Shown piece by piece: positions 39,030 to 51,911 of a stretch of DNA of 64,000 nucleotides; within the stretch, counting starts at the first letter, position 1, and every line of letters begins with the position of its first letter. Both the position numbers and the translations under genes were made by a program. Source of the DNA: Chelativorans sp. J32 (lineage in GTDB: Bacteria; Pseudomonadota; Alphaproteobacteria; Rhizobiales; Rhizobiaceae); the NCBI RefSeq assembly GCF_000518985.1, contig NZ_JAEQ01000015.1:1-64000 (forward strand), read 5' to 3'. Below the pieces are notes generated by a model. The model made no database searches. It was not told the DNA's origin and saw nothing but the letters and a program-made list of their open reading frames with translations.

Positions 39030-39368
39030 CTAGCCGCCGTTCACATGCTGCGAGACGAAAAGCTTCATTTCATCGATGAGGCGCGGCAGGCGTTGCGCGA
39101 GCTCCTCAGAATTCGGAGCAGCTTCAAGCTCGGCGGCACAGGCGGCGATCGCAAAAGCGCCGACGGCGCGGGCTGAACCAACAAGCCTGTGGGCAACGCA
39201 ACGGCGGGTCGCCGCGTTTATATCCGCAATTTCCGTCTTTGCCGCCGTGGCCTGCACAAGGAAGAGATCGAGGATCTCTCGCTTAAGCTCCTCGTCGCCC
39301 ATGGTCTGCTTAGAAAGATGTGCTAGATCTATAGGCAACTGGCTGAAATGGCTGTAACTTTCAGACAC
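39030..39368 (-). CDS. Hpt domain phosphotransfer protein
   Basis: The 112-residue protein is an isolated Hpt domain. After DLAHLSKQTMGDEELKREIL comes the phosphorylation motif RRCVAHRLVGSARAVGA with the likely phospho-His, then helices ending MKLFVSQHVNGG. It relays phosphate between receivers in phosphorelays. The GTG at 39368 follows GGGGGA. It is separate from the hybrid kinase near 11 kb, and divergent from the giant coiled-coil gene. Confidence 0.87.
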   Translation of the reverse strand: MSESYSHFSQLPIDLAHLSKQTMGDEELKREILDLFLVQATAAKTEIADINAATRRCVAHRLVGSARAVGAFAIAACAAELEAAPNSEELAQRLPRLIDEMKLFVSQHVNGG

Positions 39369-39647
39369 CGACTTATCCCCCGCCCTGTCCGGCCAATGGC
39401 CTATAACAACTGGCCGATCCTGTTTAACTCCGGTTAACTCCTGTGGACAAGACCTTAAAGTTATGCCCAAAAAATACCGCATTCAGCCAGTCTGCCGTTA
39501 ACCCTATGTTTAAACTTCTGGGCATGGCTTTTAAAACGTATTTTAATCACAACCCTGTGCCACTACGATACGGGTGGCAATTTGTGGGCGGAAACGGGTC
39601 GTGAAGAGTCCCACTTCGGGACGCCCAATGACAGGGTAGGCGGCGGC

Positions 39648-42600
39648 ATGGCACGCATTACGAGCAGGAAAGAAGACGAGTTCGCGAAGGAGCTCGAGGA
39701 CGCGCTGGAACTTGAAACCGCGTCGTTCGCGGTGGAGAGCGAGGAACTCGACGTAGCTGCCTCCATGGAGGAGCTCGAAGCGCAGATCACGATGGCGGCC
39801 GAGGAGCTTGCCCGTGAGGGCCGGAGCGAACCGGAAGCCCCCTCGTCCGAAGAAGCGGCGAATGCTGCGACGCAGCCGTTCGTGGCAGAATTCGAGCCGC
39901 TGGAGGAGCCAGATGTCGAGGAGGACCAATTCCCCGACACCTTCGAACCTGCGGAAAATCTAACCCGGGCGGAGGCCCTGCCCCCAAGCAGCCCCGCGCT
40001 CTTGCCGGCGAATGACGACAAGCAGACGGGAGACTATCTGCGCATCGCCCATAATATGGAGCAGCGGCCGTCGCGGGCGATCTATTGGGTCGCCACGGCG
40101 CTTTCCGTCGCGTGGGTGGTGCTCGGGGTGATCGTTGCCCGCTTGGGCTTCGGCACTCAGATCGGGCAGATCGGATCCATCGGCGAGCTGTTCTCCACGC
40201 CTTCGGTACTCGGCCTGATAGCTGCAGTTTTATTGCCGGTGCTTCTCATCTGGGGCTTTGCCGTGATGATCCGGCGTGCCCAGGAGATGAGGCTCGCCGC
40301 CCGCAACATGGCGGAAATCGCCTTCCGGTTAACGGAGCCCGAAAACCTGGCGCACGAGCGCGTTATGATGGTCGGCCAGGCCATCCGCCGTGAAGTGCAG
40401 GCCATGAGCCAGGGCATCGAACGCACGCTGGCGCGCGCCGTCGAGCTTGAGACACTCGTCCATACCGAAGTGAATGAACTGGAGAGGGCCTATTCGGAGA
40501 ACGAAGCCCGCATCCGGCTCCTGGTGGACAGCCTCGGAAGTGAGCGCGAGGGCATCGTCGGCCACGCGGAGCGCGTCCGCGCTTCCATCACGGGCGCCCA
40601 CGAGGTCATCAAGGAGGAGCTCAATTCCGCGAGCGACCAAATCCGTCTGACGGTGGATGGTGCAGCCCAGCGCCTCTCCTCCGTGCTGGGAGAGTCAGGT
40701 GAGACTTTCGCCCAGCGCATAAATTCGACCGGCGATTCGGTTGCCCATCTGCTTAATGAGCGCTCTGAACTTTTGTCCCGCCAGCTCGCCACTTCCAGCG
40801 AGACCCTGGCAGGTCTCCTCGATTCGCGGATTTCCGCACTGAGTGAATCGAGCACAGCCTTCATCGAACGCGTCGGCTCCTCCAGCGACGCCGTCAGTCG
40901 CCTTCTCGAGGAGCGCGCCGACACGCTCTCGCGGCAGATCACGACATCGGGGAGCGGCATTGCCGAGTTGCTCGATACCCGTATTGCCACGCTGACCGAG
41001 CGGACCGATCATGCGACGCGGGCGCTCAGCGAGCTGTTCGATGAGCGCGTTGACGGATTCGTCTCCTCCGTGGGAAGCGCGTCCGACCGCTTGAATGCGA
41101 TGTTTGCGGACCGTCTCCGCGAGATCGAGCGCACCTTTACGGATCGCGGCGAGACCCTGCTGTCGGAGTTCTCCACACGCGCACAGGCTCTCGATACCGG
41201 CATCGAGCGGCTCGAGTCGGCTCTTGATGCACGCGCACGCAGCATCAACGAGGCCTTGGTCGAACGGGCCCGCGAAATTGCCGACACCTTTTCCCGTGGC
41301 AAGCAGGATGTGGTCTCCACGATCGAGGCGGGACGCAACGCCATCGATGGTGAACTTTCCGATCTGGTCGCGTCCACGTCCATCATGCTGCAAGGCAAGG
41401 CCGAAGAATTCGCCGAGCGGCTCAAGGAAGGCCACGCGGATCTGGATGCGCGGCTCGATCAGGGCTTTAGCCGTTTCCAGGATGTGCAGACGCGCATGGA
41501 CGAGGCGATCGGCAACCAGATCACGGTGTTCGAGCAAAACCAGGGACGTCTTGCAGAGCTTCTGCACTCCGATATCCGCAAGCTGGACGAAATCCATGCG
41601 AGCTTCGAGAACCGTGTCGCTGGCCAGATCGATAAGTTGATCGAGACACGCGGGACCTTCGCTGCCGCGCTTGAGGACGATATCGCCAAAATCGGCGAGC
41701 AGCGCGACGGCCTCACCACGGCCATCCGCGCCGATATCGAGCACATCAATAGCGCGTTTGCGGCTCAGACCGGTCTCATCGAAGAACGCACGCGGACGAT
41801 GGAGAAGGCGCTCACGATCGGTGTCGACAAGGTTCGTCAGACATTGGAAAGCAGCGCCATCGTGGTCGCATCCGCGCTTCGCGACAAGGTGACCGAGGCC
41901 ACCTCTTCGCTGGGCCAGGAGACCACGAAGCTGCTCGAAAGCATCGACCAGCGCGTCGCCGCCCGGGTGGAAGGCACCACGCGTCTGTTTACCGAACAGG
42001 CCGACCGGATCGATGTAACCTTCGACGGCGCTGCCGACCGTATTGCGGCGCGCGCCGAAGAGGTTGCGCGCAGGCTCGGGGAGCACGTCGAGCAGATCGA
42101 CCGCACTTTCGACGGTGCGGCGGAGCGTGCGGCGGGGCGTGTCGAAATGGTGGCTCAGGCCATTGCCGGGCAAGTCAGCCGCATCGACACCGTCGTGGAT
42201 ACGGCCGGGGATCGCATTGCCGGTCGCGTCGAGACAGTTACCCGATCGCTTGCCGAACAGGTGGAACAGATCGACCGCACTTTCGACGGAGCCGCAGATC
42301 GGATTGCGGGCCGCGTCGAGGGCGCCGCAAGCCTACTTGGCGAGCATGTCGAAGCGATCGACCAGACACTCGATACGGCGGCGCGTCGCATCGCTCAGAG
42401 GACCGAAGCGTTCCAGAACAACTTCAATGAAGTCGACCGGCGTGTTGCGGCACGCATTGACGATGTGTCGTCGCTGCTCTCCGATCGTGCAGAAACTGTC
42501 GCGCGTACCTTCGAGGAAGCCGATCAGCGTATCGTCGCACGCACGCAGCAGACTTCTGCCGAGCTCGAGGCGCAGGCAGCGTCGATCGTCGAGCAGATCG

Positions 42601-44519
42601 CCAATCTCGAGAGCCGCCTGCGCACGGCGACCGGTTCCACCGCTACTGCCATCGTCGGCAGCGCAGCGGAGGTCGAGCGGCGGCTCGGCGAGACGATCGG
42701 CCGTACGACTGCAGCCCTCGAGGAAGGGGTCGGCGGTGCCGAGGAGCGCCTCAAGACCACCGCCGAACAGGCTGCTCAGCACCTCAGCCAGCAGCTTGCC
42801 CGGACACAGGCCGATCTGGTCTCGACTGCCGACACGATCGGGCAGACCTTCGCCACGATCAACGAGCATATCGCCAGGCGTACCGGTGAGACCGTGCGGA
42901 CGCTCGAGGAGCGCACGCGGGAGTTCAACAACGTCCTTGCAGGCCGTACCTCCGAGATCGCTCGTATCCTTGACGAAACGGCACGGCCGCTCGTTGAGCG
43001 TTTCGAAAATAGCGGTGGCGAACTGCGCGAAGGCATCGAAGCTATCACGCAGCAAACCGCGGAGCGTCTGCGCCAGGAGAACGCGGCCCTTGTCAACGCA
43101 CTGGCAAGCCGCACGGCGGAAACCCTCAGTGCAATGGAGCGAGCCCGCAGCAACCTCCTCGGGAATGTGGACGAGCTTCTTGGCAGCCTGGAAGCTTCCG
43201 GCAACAGGATCGGCCAGTTGGTCGAGGTCGCGGCGCAAAACATGTCCCAAGTGGACGAGAAGCTTGCCGGTACGACTCAGGAATTCGCGCGCAATGCGGA
43301 AAGGGCGGCCGAAACCATCGCCAATTCCGCCAGCCTCATCAATGCGAATTCCGGCAGGCTTGCCGACTTCTCCGAACGCACTCTGCGGGAAATCTCGGTT
43401 ATCGCCAGCCGCTTCGAAGATCACAGCCGCGTGCTCGAAACGGCTTCCGAGCTGCTTGAAAAGGCACAAGGCAGCCTCGGTACGAGCCTCGAGGGCCGCC
43501 AGCAGGCGCTCAATGAACTCGCCAATGGACTGGTGGAAAAGTCCGAGCATGTCGAGCGCATCATGAAGTCTTTCGAGCATCTCATTGAGAACACTGTGGA
43601 AGCGGCTGAAGGCAGAACCCGCGTATCGATGGAGGCCATCCGCGAATCCATCAACGAGGTGGTGGAAGCGGCTACCCGCCGCTTCGCGGGTGCAACCGAC
43701 GATCTACGGCAGAGCGCCAGAGAAATCCGCGAGGAGATCGAAGCGACGCGCGCCGACGTGAAACGGGGTATCGTGGAGCTTCCGGAAGAAGCGAAGCAGT
43801 CGACCTCTGCCATGCGCCGCGCGATCACGGAACAGATCAATGCGCTCAAGGAGCTCTCGGACATCGTCGCGAAGTCCGGTCGTCTACACGATGTCGGCGG
43901 CAGCGCGCGCGATGCCGGCCCTGCCCTGGACCGTCATCGCCAGAGCTCTGCCCATATCGTGGCCGAGGCCGTCCCGCCGCAAAACTTCTCCCGCATTGTG
44001 GAGAGACCGCGCACGGAACAGCGGACACGGCAGCCGGCCCCCCGCCAGGCGGCCCCGGTCCAGGACGTGCAGCCGTCCACGCCCACCGGAGGAGGCTGGA
44101 TTCGCGATCTCCTGCGCAGTGCATCGCGCGAAGAGGACGCGACTGCAGAAGCCCCTGCAGACAAGTACCCGGCGCATGTCGTGGAGTCTCTGAACTCCTT
44201 GTCGCTGGACATCGCCAGGGCGATCGATCACGACGTGTCTGTCGAGCTGTGGGAAAGATATCGCCGCGGAGAGCGCAATGTGTTCAACCGCCGGCTTTAC
44301 ACCCTGAAGGGCCAGCAGACTTTCGATGAGATCCAGCGGAAGTATCGAGCCGATGCCGAATTCCGCAAGGCGGTCGATCAATACTGCCGCGATTTCGAGA
44401 AGCTCCTGGCCGATGTCTCCCGCACGGACCGCGACAACACGATGAGCCAGACCTACCTGACCTCCGATACCGGAAAGGTGTATACGATGCTGGCGCACGC
44501 AAGCGGGCGCCTGCATTAA
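39648..44519 (+). CDS. Giant membrane-anchored coiled-coil protein, growth pole ring protein (GPR/RgsE) candidate
   Basis: The 1623-residue protein has an acidic N-terminal domain (1-140), two membrane helices (about 145-165 and 187-208) and more than 1200 residues of charged heptad-like helix with apolipoprotein A1/A4/E-like repeats. The region around 780-925 holds clear repeats with the unit QIDRTFDGAADRIAGRVE. A C-terminal globular part (from RDLLRSASREED) has FNRRLYTLKGQQTF. This layout matches GPR of Agrobacterium tumefaciens and RgsE of Sinorhizobium, which form a ring at the growing pole. The Agrobacterium protein is about 2115 residues. A strong terminator follows. An ATG at 39582 is also in frame. 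Confidence 0.75.
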   Translation: MARITSRKEDEFAKELEDALELETASFAVESEELDVAASMEELEAQITMAAEELAREGRSEPEAPSSEEAANAATQPFVAEFEPLEEPDVEEDQFPDTFEPAENLTRAEALPPSSPALLPANDDKQTGDYLRIAHNMEQRPSRAIYWVATALSVAWVVLGVIVARLGFGTQIGQIGSIGELFSTPSVLGLIAAVLLPVLLIWGFAVMIRRAQEMRLAARNMAEIAFRLTEPENLAHERVMMVGQAIRREVQAMSQGIERTLARAVELETLVHTEVNELERAYSENEARIRLLVDSLGSEREGIVGHAERVRASITGAHEVIKEELNSASDQIRLTVDGAAQRLSSVLGESGETFAQRINSTGDSVAHLLNERSELLSRQLATSSETLAGLLDSRISALSESSTAFIERVGSSSDAVSRLLEERADTLSRQITTSGSGIAELLDTRIATLTERTDHATRALSELFDERVDGFVSSVGSASDRLNAMFADRLREIERTFTDRGETLLSEFSTRAQALDTGIERLESALDARARSINEALVERAREIADTFSRGKQDVVSTIEAGRNAIDGELSDLVASTSIMLQGKAEEFAERLKEGHADLDARLDQGFSRFQDVQTRMDEAIGNQITVFEQNQGRLAELLHSDIRKLDEIHASFENRVAGQIDKLIETRGTFAAALEDDIAKIGEQRDGLTTAIRADIEHINSAFAAQTGLIEERTRTMEKALTIGVDKVRQTLESSAIVVASALRDKVTEATSSLGQETTKLLESIDQRVAARVEGTTRLFTEQADRIDVTFDGAADRIAARAEEVARRLGEHVEQIDRTFDGAAERAAGRVEMVAQAIAGQVSRIDTVVDTAGDRIAGRVETVTRSLAEQVEQIDRTFDGAADRIAGRVEGAASLLGEHVEAIDQTLDTAARRIAQRTEAFQNNFNEVDRRVAARIDDVSSLLSDRAETVARTFEEADQRIVARTQQTSAELEAQAASIVEQIANLESRLRTATGSTATAIVGSAAEVERRLGETIGRTTAALEEGVGGAEERLKTTAEQAAQHLSQQLARTQADLVSTADTIGQTFATINEHIARRTGETVRTLEERTREFNNVLAGRTSEIARILDETARPLVERFENSGGELREGIEAITQQTAERLRQENAALVNALASRTAETLSAMERARSNLLGNVDELLGSLEASGNRIGQLVEVAAQNMSQVDEKLAGTTQEFARNAERAAETIANSASLINANSGRLADFSERTLREISVIASRFEDHSRVLETASELLEKAQGSLGTSLEGRQQALNELANGLVEKSEHVERIMKSFEHLIENTVEAAEGRTRVSMEAIRESINEVVEAATRRFAGATDDLRQSAREIREEIEATRADVKRGIVELPEEAKQSTSAMRRAITEQINALKELSDIVAKSGRLHDVGGSARDAGPALDRHRQSSAHIVAEAVPPQNFSRIVERPRTEQRTRQPAPRQAAPVQDVQPSTPTGGGWIRDLLRSASREEDATAEAPADKYPAHVVESLNSLSLDIARAIDHDVSVELWERYRRGERNVFNRRLYTLKGQQTFDEIQRKYRADAEFRKAVDQYCRDFEKLLADVSRTDRDNTMSQTYLTSDTGKVYTMLAHASGRLH

Positions 44520-44572: not shown

Positions 44573-44663
44573 GTTTGTGGGAGGGTTTTCGCGCAATTGA
44601 ATACACCTCTTGCAATCCTCCACTTTGCCGAGCATTCTCAGACTAGGAGAGCGAGGGGTTCGT

Positions 44664-45395
44664 ATGTACGGCGGCGGTGGCGATGCCTTACGGTCTGAAT
44701 TCGGCATCGTAGAGACTGTTCGGCGCGCTAAGAACATCGAGGAAGCAATATTCCTGGTGCGCGATGGTTTTGGGCTTCTGCACGCAACCTTCTACATGAA
44801 CGTTTCGGGCGCAGCGCCGCTGGACTATTCCTTCGTCCGGACCACTTTTCCACCACAATGGATTTCGCGATATGTCCTGCGCGCCTATCTTAGCCAAGAT
44901 CCGGTGATTCGCGCAGGCTTCTCGTCGATGCAGCCTTTCGCCTGGCACGAGCTGGAACTGAGCGAGCGCGAGCGTGAATTCATGGAAGACGCTCGCATGC
45001 ATAGCGTTGGTCCGCAGGGCTATTCGATTCCGACCACGGATCGCTTTTCCCGCCGCTCGCTTTTCTCGCTGGCGGCAGATCTGGATCTCAGCATCTGGGT
45101 GGACTTCATCCGCAAACACGCGCGCGCGGCGATCGAGATCGCCCAGATCCTGCACCAGAAGGCGATAGATGAACTGGAACTCGGTCCCGCAGCCGGCACG
45201 ATTCTGGCGCCGCGGGAATTGGAGTGCCTGCTGTGGACGGCCAAGGGTAAGGACTCGAAGGCGATCGCCGGAATTCTGAACCTTTCCGAATATACGGTGC
45301 GCAGCTATTTGCGGACGGCCCGCCAAAAGCTTCAATGCCGGACGCTGTCTCAGGCGGTGGGCAAGGCGGTGCGCCAGCGGCTCATTGATCCGTAA
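44664..45395 (+). CDS. LuxR-type regulator with autoinducer-binding domain
   Basis: The 243-residue protein has an N-terminal autoinducer-binding domain (about 15-165) and a C-terminal LuxR helix-turn-helix ([20 protein letters not shown], then [19 protein letters not shown]). Residues that hold acyl-homoserine lactones in TraR are mostly matched: QW and RY, then DPV and PFAWHEL. No luxI synthase is in the window, so it looks like a solo receptor. AGGGG lies 7 nt before the ATG at 44664. Its stop overlaps the 3' end of glpK by 14 bp. Confidence 0.88.
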
Positions 45396-50822: not shown

Positions 50823-51299
50823 TTACGCCAGATCCGCTGCCACGCGCATGGAAACGATGGAGTCGGGATCGCGCACCGGCTCGCCGCGCTTGATCTTGTC
50901 GACATTCTCCATGCCTTCGATCACCTGGCCCCAAACCGAATATTGCTTGTTCAGCCAAGGAGCCTCTTCGAAGCAGATGAAGAACTGCGAGTTGGCGGAA
51001 TTCGGGTTCTGAGAGCGGGCCATGGAACACGTGCCGCGCACATGCGGCAGGTTCGAGAACTCGGCCTTGAGATCCGGTTTCTCGGATCCCCCCATACCCG
51101 TTCCCGTCGGGTCGCCGGTCTGGGCCATGAACCCGTCAATCACGCGGTGAAAGACAATACCGTCGTAAAAGCCCTCACGCGCGAGCTCCTTGATACGTGC
51201 GACATGCGCCGGCGCAGCATCCGGAAACAACTGGATTACGACATTTCCTTTGGTCGTCTCCATGACGATCGCGTTTTCCGGGTCTTTTATATCAGCCAT
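50823..51299 (-). CDS. Cytoplasmic peptidyl-prolyl cis-trans isomerase, cyclophilin type
   Basis: The 158-residue protein has no signal peptide and starts with a short acidic lead. Cyclophilin motifs: FYDGIVFHRVIDGFMAQTGD (catalytic Arg region), SMARSQNPNSANSQFFICF and WGQVIEGMENVDKI. It catalyses prolyl isomerisation in the cytoplasm. It is the downstream member of a tandem pair, 27 bp after the exported paralogue. Confidence 0.95.
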   Translation of the reverse strand: MADIKDPENAIVMETTKGNVVIQLFPDAAPAHVARIKELAREGFYDGIVFHRVIDGFMAQTGDPTGTGMGGSEKPDLKAEFSNLPHVRGTCSMARSQNPNSANSQFFICFEEAPWLNKQYSVWGQVIEGMENVDKIKRGEPVRDPDSIVSMRVAADLA

Positions 51300-51326: not shown

Positions 51327-51911
51327 TTACTGATCCGCGGCGATCCGTACGCTCAGCATGCGGTCCGGGTTCTGGACCAGGCCGTTTGCTGACGGATCGC
51401 CCTTTTTGATGTTGTCCACGAGTTCCATGCCGGATTCCACCTGGCCTACCACCGTGTAGGCTCCATTGAGATGGGATGCCGGTGCGAACATGATGAAGAA
51501 CTGCGAGTTGGCAGAATTTGGATCTTGCGAACGCGCCATGCCGAGCGTGCCGCGATCGAAAGCCGTGCTCGTGAACTCGGCCGGCAAATCCGGCAGATCG
51601 GAACCACCGGTCCCAACGAGCTGTGCATTATAGCCGTCTTCCATATCGCCATACTGAACGTCGCCGGTCTGAGCCATGAAGCCCTCGATCACGCGGTGGA
51701 AGGCTACATTGTCATAGGCCTTCTCCCGTACGAGCTTCTTGATCTGCTCGACATGCTTGGGCGCGAGATCAGGCCTCAGCGCGACCACGACCTCACCATC
51801 CTTTAGCTTGATGATCATGGTGTCTTCGGGGTCCGCCGCGAGTGCGGCTCCTGCGCTGAGGGCCAGGCTTGCGGCAACGCACAAAGGTGCAAGACGAGAA
51901 AAAAGGCGCAT
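51327..51911 (-). CDS. Exported peptidyl-prolyl cis-trans isomerase, cyclophilin type
   Basis: The 194-residue protein has a signal peptide (MRLFSRLAPLCVAASLALSA, cleavage near GAALAA-DPE) and a complete cyclophilin domain: YDNVAFHRVIEGFMAQTGDV, MARSQDPNSANSQFFIMF and VVGQVESGMELVD. It should act in the periplasm. It is a paralogue of the next gene downstream and lies 16 bp after coaD. The pair suggests a tandem duplication followed by different targeting. Confidence 0.95.
   Translation of the reverse strand: MRLFSRLAPLCVAASLALSAGAALAADPEDTMIIKLKDGEVVVALRPDLAPKHVEQIKKLVREKAYDNVAFHRVIEGFMAQTGDVQYGDMEDGYNAQLVGTGGSDLPDLPAEFTSTAFDRGTLGMARSQDPNSANSQFFIMFAPASHLNGAYTVVGQVESGMELVDNIKKGDPSANGLVQNPDRMLSVRIAADQ

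Follow-up and report, generated by a model that had tools for sequence, protein, structure and literature searches.

A Chelativorans orthologue of the growth pole ring protein GPR/RgsE, with a phase-coherent and probably coiled-coil rod and a divergent Hpt neighbour

The gene at positions 39648-44519 of the stretch of Chelativorans sp. J32 DNA analysed here (64,000 nucleotides, hereafter the window) is an orthologue of gpr/rgsE. Its product probably acts as a membrane-anchored protein whose non-heptad coiled-coil rods form a ring-like scaffold at the new pole, a reading to which we assign a probability of about 0.8. The gene itself is an ordinary orthologue and adds one more representative to a known family, and the comparative results obtained around it may be of interest to specialists. 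The features referred to below are as follows (coordinates are those of the window).

39030..39482, minus strand: gene of a single-domain histidine phosphotransfer (Hpt) protein of up to 150 aa, divergent from gpr (PF01627)
39483..39647, no strand: 165-base spacer separating the divergent hpt and gpr genes (from the coordinates)
39648..44519, plus strand: gpr/rgsE orthologue, 1,623 aa (translation, Pfam, reciprocal searches)
39648..40079, plus strand: acidic N-terminal head, residues 1-144 (charge count; N-terminus common to L001)
40080..40136, plus strand: predicted membrane helix 1, residues 145-163 (hydropathy peak)
40215..40271, plus strand: predicted membrane helix 2, residues 190-208 (hydropathy peak)
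40272..40637, plus strand: conserved stalk following the hairpin of membrane helices, residues 209-330 (identity with RgsE; hairpin-stalk profile)
40338..43217, plus strand: first rod segment, residues 231-1190, with one phase-coherent hydrophobic stripe (period, phase)
43218..43397, plus strand: break of the rod phase, about residues 1191-1250, possibly a hinge (amplitude drop, phase shift)
43398..43862, plus strand: second segment of the rod, about residues 1251-1405 (61% identity with RgsE over residues 1345-1405)
43863..44165, plus strand: proline-rich linker, residues 1406-1506 (sequence and alignment)
44088-44135, plus strand: conserved GGGWIRDLLRSASREE motif inside the proline-rich linker (sequence and alignment)
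44166..44516, plus strand: C-terminal domain, residues 1507-1623 (best-conserved part of the aligned region)
44454..44516, plus strand: C-terminal YLTSDTGKVYTMLAHASGR motif (invariant columns in alignments A1, 26 rows, and A2, 34 rows)

The coding frame (39648-44516, stop codon 44517-44519) yields the 1,623 residues claimed in the earlier note, which had also described an acidic head, confirmed here by a net 26 acidic charges in residues 1-100, and membrane helices near residues 145-208, where the two hydropathy peaks were indeed found. The open frame comprises 1,645 codons, and the start codon is backed by the orthologue of Chelativorans multitrophicus (84% identity over the whole length), nearest of all named relatives found by the scan, which begins with MARNTIKKEDDFAKELEDALELET where the window protein begins with MARITSRKEDEFAKELEDALELET. 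The long open frame, the whole-length relatives in related genomes and the periodicity of the rod put the gene far beyond chance. Like GPR and RgsE, the protein has two N-terminal membrane helices, predicted from hydropathy only, with its bulk following them, and a long continuous helical region matching the Pfam Apolipoprotein model; prolines are absent from residues 232-1113 and 1115-1378.

Sequence comparison shows the window gene to be the sole GPR/RgsE orthologue of this Chelativorans-like genome. When the 2,089-aa protein of Sinorhizobium meliloti was searched against the genome (4.7 Mb, 45 contigs), five pieces fell in the window gene (best E = 1.3e-85), the next place having E = 0.087, and in the opposite direction the window protein matched S. 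meliloti record CP090106.1 (3.7 Mb) in six pieces, all in the 2,089-aa gene only. The S. meliloti sequence used, the 'kinesin' UIJ93612.1 of CP090106.1, is a stand-in for RgsE SMc00190, and was taken as its counterpart because its 2,089 aa equal the published length and it is the sole match in the record. In the public annotation of strain Ak57 the name 'kinesin' is attached to RgsE at 2044121-2050390 of CP090106.1 (L084), and this 3.7-Mb replicon, which bears RgsE, is labelled plasmid pSymB. The tie to GPR of Agrobacterium tumefaciens (Atu1348) goes through the published identity of 42% between RgsE (2,089 aa) and GPR (excerpts of PMC7327166) and through the Agrobacterium vitis orthologue L029, with which the window gene has synteny and domains in common. 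The gene order YcjF, folB, folP, DUF922, Hpt (minus strand), gpr is common to the window, S. meliloti and A. vitis L029. The window protein and RgsE are alike in architecture, gene order, reciprocal best match and conserved ends, and they differ in the length of the rod (about 470 residues shorter in the window protein) and slightly in its period (3.642 against 3.654). As to GPR (2,115 aa), its description in the excerpted text of PMC8262873 agrees with the window protein in the two N-terminal membrane helices, the continuous apolipoprotein-like helical region and the proline-rich stretch near the end.

The BLAST alignment with RgsE shows 28% identity over 1,527 columns, the regions differing considerably: 55% in the hairpin plus stalk (107/195), 61% at the rod end (37/61) and 79% in the C-terminal domain (90/114). 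The identities outside the rod (55-79%), together with the reciprocal best matches and the synteny, contradict the supposition that the protein is an unrelated long coiled coil (a ZorA tail or a structural coiled-coil protein), resembling GPR by composition only. What speaks for that supposition are weak NCBIfam matches to ZorA tails (E = 4e-12) and to spirochaete coiled-coil models; however, the best ZorA score, 45 bits, compares with a curated cut-off of 190 and covers the tail only, with no N-terminal membrane part. Cut-offs, reciprocal searches and synteny rule out such a protein here, and we give this explanation hardly any credence. The identity as GPR/RgsE, proposed in the earlier note, is therefore borne out by the reciprocal best match with RgsE, synteny and architecture, the S. 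meliloti search and the comparison of gene order both agreeing with it. That note had regarded best hits to an unrelated coiled-coil family, or a second and better GPR match elsewhere in the genome, as grounds for abandoning its proposal; the reciprocal best match proved to be RgsE, and the search of the genome with its own gene returned no second gpr copy, the only match besides itself having E = 0.05.

The window protein is shorter than the roughly 2,100 aa typical of GPR and RgsE: the shortfall of some 500 residues against the Agrobacterium protein anticipated earlier is about 490 by the published length, and that against RgsE (1,623 against 2,089 aa, about 470 residues) is due almost entirely to a shorter rod. 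Measured from one conserved landmark to the other, the rod of the window protein has 1,015 residues; the corresponding lengths are 787 (L027), 1,489 (S. meliloti), 1,798 (A. vitis) and 2,321 (L038), and the same landmark comparison shows that the protein ends stay alike while rod length varies. Complete orthologues in the scan range from 1,387 aa (L027) to 3,115 aa (L038), and length is therefore not a defining trait of the family.

The rod has a strong non-heptad periodicity. Hydrophobic residues between positions 231 and 1410 give a spectral peak at 3.640 residues per turn with a power of 79, whereas none of 200 shuffles exceeded 12.5; in the first rod segment the period is 3.640-3.642 and the heptad power 0.4. 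A coherent period of 3.634-3.666 with a heptad power not above 2.0 was found in all 36 long orthologue rows (out of 42, six fragments shorter than 1,300 aa being left out; L024, L025 and L039 are partial, and L010 and L011 near-identical), and chance periodicity is ruled out by the difference in power and the agreement of all long rows. Starting at residue 231, the local phase varies only between about -27 and +65 degrees until about residue 1190, so that the stripe is held over some 960 residues; then it breaks and resumes. Self-similarity of the rod peaks at lags 29, 11, 22 and 18. On a helical wheel framed on the local phase, which is a statistical pattern and not a structure, the hydrophobic face is narrow (a hydrophobic fraction of 0.83-0.84 up to 30 degrees to either side of the stripe centre and 0.24-0.30 in the next bins), while the wheel of shuffled sequences is flat at 23-26% hydrophobic. 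Arginine makes up 18-19% on one edge of this face; in all other positions outside the face it does not exceed 8%. Aspartate plus glutamate peak at about one third towards the opposite edge; since they also form about one quarter of the polar-face middle, the charge asymmetry is clearest for arginine.

Insertions and deletions within the rod respect this stripe. Among 39 events of at least 5 residues, 34 shift it by no more than 45 degrees (p = 1.3e-15 against a base fraction of 0.258). The events come from 11 sequence pairs in which each sequence was used once, gaps close to the ends being excluded; they are not independent, 12 of them belonging to one pair at 51% identity (L020-L022). Random indels simulated through the same aligner gave an in-register fraction of 0.25-0.30, and the effect was not seen in either of two simulations, which disposes of an aligner artefact. 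These regularities, taken from the sequences, suggest that the rod is a non-heptad coiled coil whose length may change in structural quanta.

In helices of class A, which bind lipid, the hydrophobic face is broad and is flanked by basic residues at either edge, a combination that the window rod does not display. This bears on the possibility that the rod is a lipid-binding, apolipoprotein-like array at the growing pole, its length setting the lipid capacity. Such an array would account for the match to Apolipoprotein PF01442 (E = 6.3e-37 with 10 stretches, the whole protein scoring 127.6 bits where the cut-off is 90), for the 11-residue self-similarity, which the rod has in common with the apolipoprotein A1/A4/E family as an amphipathic periodicity, and for the acidic residues at the centre of the polar face, and it has on its side the published modelling and deletion data of PMC8262873, whose excerpted text favours an apolipoprotein-like, lipid-related role. 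However, PF01442 gives a loose signal: every single stretch stays below the cut-off when the genome is searched, and under a permissive threshold matches also turn up in 13 of 14 named control genomes, none above the cut-off. Unlike apolipoproteins, the window rod has a narrow hydrophobic face, arginine raised on one edge only, a phase lock over about 960 residues and a membrane anchor, and a phase kept over this distance with indels in register is what side-by-side packing, and not lipid binding, needs. The rod thus looks more like a non-heptad coiled coil than a lipid-wrapping apolipoprotein, and we consider the lipid array rather unlikely. As for the apolipoprotein-like helical part reported in the earlier note, the PF01442 match and the periodic rod stand, while the label is probably misleading as to the mechanism.

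The C-terminal domain (44166-44516) has no significant match to any Pfam or NCBIfam model, and a search of PDB sequences returned nothing better than E = 0.27; two AlphaFold models of it (mean pLDDT 67.0 and 66.4) found no match at E <=0.001 in a PDB structure search. Its YLTSDTGKVYTMLAHASGR motif is near-invariant across Rhizobiales (alignments A1 and A2), and we regard the domain as a candidate for a new alphaproteobacterial family. The C-terminal profile (A1, with all 26 rows from the first scan) matches 191 of 199 Rhizobiales genomes, 100 of the 289 genomes of the Alphaproteobacteria sample and 64 of the 299 genomes of the Pseudomonadota sample, all 64 within Alphaproteobacteria. Homologues of RgsE were reported from every Rhizobiales family, with distant ones in Emcibacterales and Rhodospirillales (excerpts of PMC7327166), a range to which Sphingomonadales can be added (L085).

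To follow the family further, 41 loci were collected, namely L085 and L087-L126, the latter being the best 40 of the 99 other domain-positive genomes of the class. A long protein is in frame in 40 of them (L107 is cut to 116 aa). N-terminal hydrophobic segments are predicted in these 40 except L120, which lies at a contig end, the two segments overlapping in L114, and the rod of each of the 40 is dominated by a single non-heptad period (3.558-3.658) that stands out above 20 shuffled controls. The Rhizobiales hairpin-stalk profile matches 23 of the 41 at E <=0.01 (E = 2e-12 to 3e-24 on L087-L093) and misses 18, so that full-length homology is shown for a part of these loci only. Outside Rhizobiales the period lies at 3.558-3.590 in 34 of 39 rods and at 3.618-3.636 in five (L092, L102, L110, L115, L119); a period that depends on lineage, mostly 3.56-3.59 outside the order (e.g., L094, L095) and 3.63-3.67 inside it, would imply a different superhelical twist. 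The C-terminal domain of L121 is 74% identical to that of Sphingomonas parapaucimobilis.

This genome gave no match to MreB, in agreement with what is expected of a polar grower. In the Alphaproteobacteria sample MreB is present in 264 of 289 genomes. Among the 100 domain-positive ones 90 have it and 10 do not, the 10 having been obtained by comparing two listings, with five of the MreB-negatives deduced from missing handles, and four being assemblies only 67-84% complete. Because these 90 genomes contain MreB, the GPR family is not tied to polar growth, and its use as a polar-growth marker is ruled out. Within Rhizobiales MreB was found in 24 of 199 genomes, all 24 with the GPR domain, and here the length of the gpr frame differs. 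The median open frame is 1,106 with MreB (n=22) and 1,899 without it (n=160), and frames of at least 1,500 aa number 0/22 and 129/160, respectively, a comparison uncorrected for the tree; lengths were taken from stop to stop in 191 rows, of which nine below 700 aa, two of them with MreB, were dropped as likely cut. Medians of families with and without MreB also differ (8 vs 35 families, p = 0.004, again uncorrected for the tree). A strict rule by which loss of MreB means a long rod fails, since 31 of the 160 MreB-less Rhizobiales frames are shorter than 1,500 aa and 15 of 98 frames outside the order, many in MreB-containing genomes, reach this length. Among the matches listed in literature searches on the growth pole ring and MreB, no title concerned this length link. 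The association of the longest Rhizobiales versions with the loss of MreB makes a role in MreB-less growth more testable.

The wide occurrence of the family alongside MreB, in those 90 domain-positive genomes, is also a ground for supposing that the homologue is here a general polarity landmark like TipN and not a factor of polar growth. GPR was called similar to Caulobacter TipN (PMC8546619) and TipN was called analogous (PMC13170164), both in excerpted text, and the window copy is shorter than GPR and RgsE. TipN of C. crescentus (882 aa) is likened to GPR through published description, and its length resembles that of the 700-1,000-aa family members in MreB-containing genomes; the excerpts of PMC7403779 and PMC10127582 offered nothing useful on the TipN sequence or its homologues. 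However, the genome studied has no MreB match, the gene is an orthologue from an organism that shares its order with A. tumefaciens and S. meliloti, its neighbours are the same, and its frame of 1,686 codons is longer than those in all 24 MreB-containing Rhizobiales genomes, the longest of which is 1,498. We therefore hold a purely TipN-like role to be improbable in this organism and retain the polar growth scaffold as the preferred reading.

The gene transcribed divergently from gpr encodes a single-domain Hpt protein, with the only PF01627 match above the cut-off in the genome (27.6 against 24.6 bits). The usual Hpt motif is HxLKG-like, with a phosphorylatable histidine; the window's Hpt protein keeps the histidine in AHRLVGSA, with valine in place of lysine. 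In the Sphingomonas counterpart (L085 5622-5915) leucine replaces the histidine (ALRLKG), which suggests that some copies may not be phosphorylated. A divergent Hpt gene lies beside gpr in 33 of the 34 first-scan loci with upstream sequence, the exception being L015; seven other loci of that scan start inside gpr or too near it to be counted. With an Hpt profile built from these 33 genes and the window's own, the pair was recovered at 12 of the additional 41 loci: L112 in Rhizobiales and 11 of the 36 testable loci outside it (L107, L115, L120 and L123, with a cut gene or short upstream sequence, fall outside the test). Because these loci are the highest-ranked ones, such pairs will make up a lower share across the class. 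The 11 pairs span six families, f11 (3), f5 (2), f117 (2), f122, f124 and Sphingomonadaceae (2), a count which assumes that f14 is Sphingomonadaceae; the third f14 locus, L113, has no pair. Pfam recognised Hpt above the cut-off in eight of nine submitted proteins, the Sphingomonas one scoring 16.6 against 24.6. Of the 10 window neighbours tried at L085 and L087-L106, no other was kept, save a weak glpD-like match in L087.

Since such genomes hold 1-12 matches to PF01627 (20 genomes examined), chance adjacency of gpr and Hpt is unlikely. In a tree of the C-terminal domain (58 rows, midpoint root) the paired families f11, f5, f117, f122 and f124 group with Hyphomicrobiales (99/98), as does L115, and the Sphingomonadaceae pair stands apart. 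Our literature searches, with most subscription journals outside their scope, returned no report of the gpr-Hpt pairing, and the excerpts of PMC9022086, which mentions both Hpt and the growth pole ring, do not discuss the pair. We infer a functional link between the two proteins from this conserved neighbourhood, and the Hpt signalling gene becomes a conserved candidate partner of GPR.

Other neighbours are of more local occurrence. Directly 3' of gpr the window carries a gene of a LuxR-type regulator with an autoinducer-binding domain (44610-45395, plus strand), which follows gpr in all seven Chelativorans loci and in Nitratireductor L006 and was not seen in the other first-scan loci, some of which end soon after gpr. 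Two tandem peptidyl-prolyl isomerase-like genes, named by eye from the translation, lie at 50823-51299 and 51327-51911 on the minus strand.

The scaffold reading can be worded as follows. The two-helix hairpin near the N-terminus would anchor the protein in the inner membrane, and the very long, nearly uninterrupted alpha-helical rod would extend into the cytoplasm, ending in the proline-rich linker and the strongly conserved C-terminal domain. Rods of several copies would most likely pack side by side in a non-heptad (hendecad-type) coiled coil and assemble into a ring-like scaffold at the new pole, where the conserved head, stalk and C-terminal domain may dock partners and so confine wall and membrane synthesis to the growing tip. 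Rod length, evolving by gain or loss of in-register helical steps that would leave the packing stripe intact, may be an adjustable dimension of this scaffold. Published work provides its experimental background. GPR orthologues form a polar ring and their depletion results in round cells (PMC8262873), the protein was localised to the new pole in another Rhizobiales genus (PMC9938171), and RgsA, RgsS and TolQ were found as partners of RgsE in S. meliloti (PMC8262873, PMC7327166 and PMC9938171, jointly for partners, ring and role in shape). In the excerpts of PMC8262873, C-terminal deletions of GPR block complementation, paired foci persisting without the last 332 residues; deletion of the large A-IV-1 rod region abolishes the paired foci, and deletion of short predicted coiled coils leaves them formed in the complementation assay.

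GPR/RgsE is a candidate scaffold for one-pole wall growth in bacteria lacking MreB, and reading the rod as phase-locked and non-heptad, rather than as a lipid wrap, makes the scaffold idea more testable. A broader and quite tentative conjecture, which we think more likely wrong than right, is that GPR and the divergent Hpt protein form an ancient alphaproteobacterial polarity module older than polar growth, the landmark having been co-opted as the chief shape scaffold in Rhizobiales lineages after the loss of MreB and its rod lengthened. If this were true, a phosphorelay component would regulate a membrane-anchored coiled-coil landmark or be positioned by it, the rod would have grown by in-register steps after MreB was lost, and its length may serve as a ruler of the growth zone.
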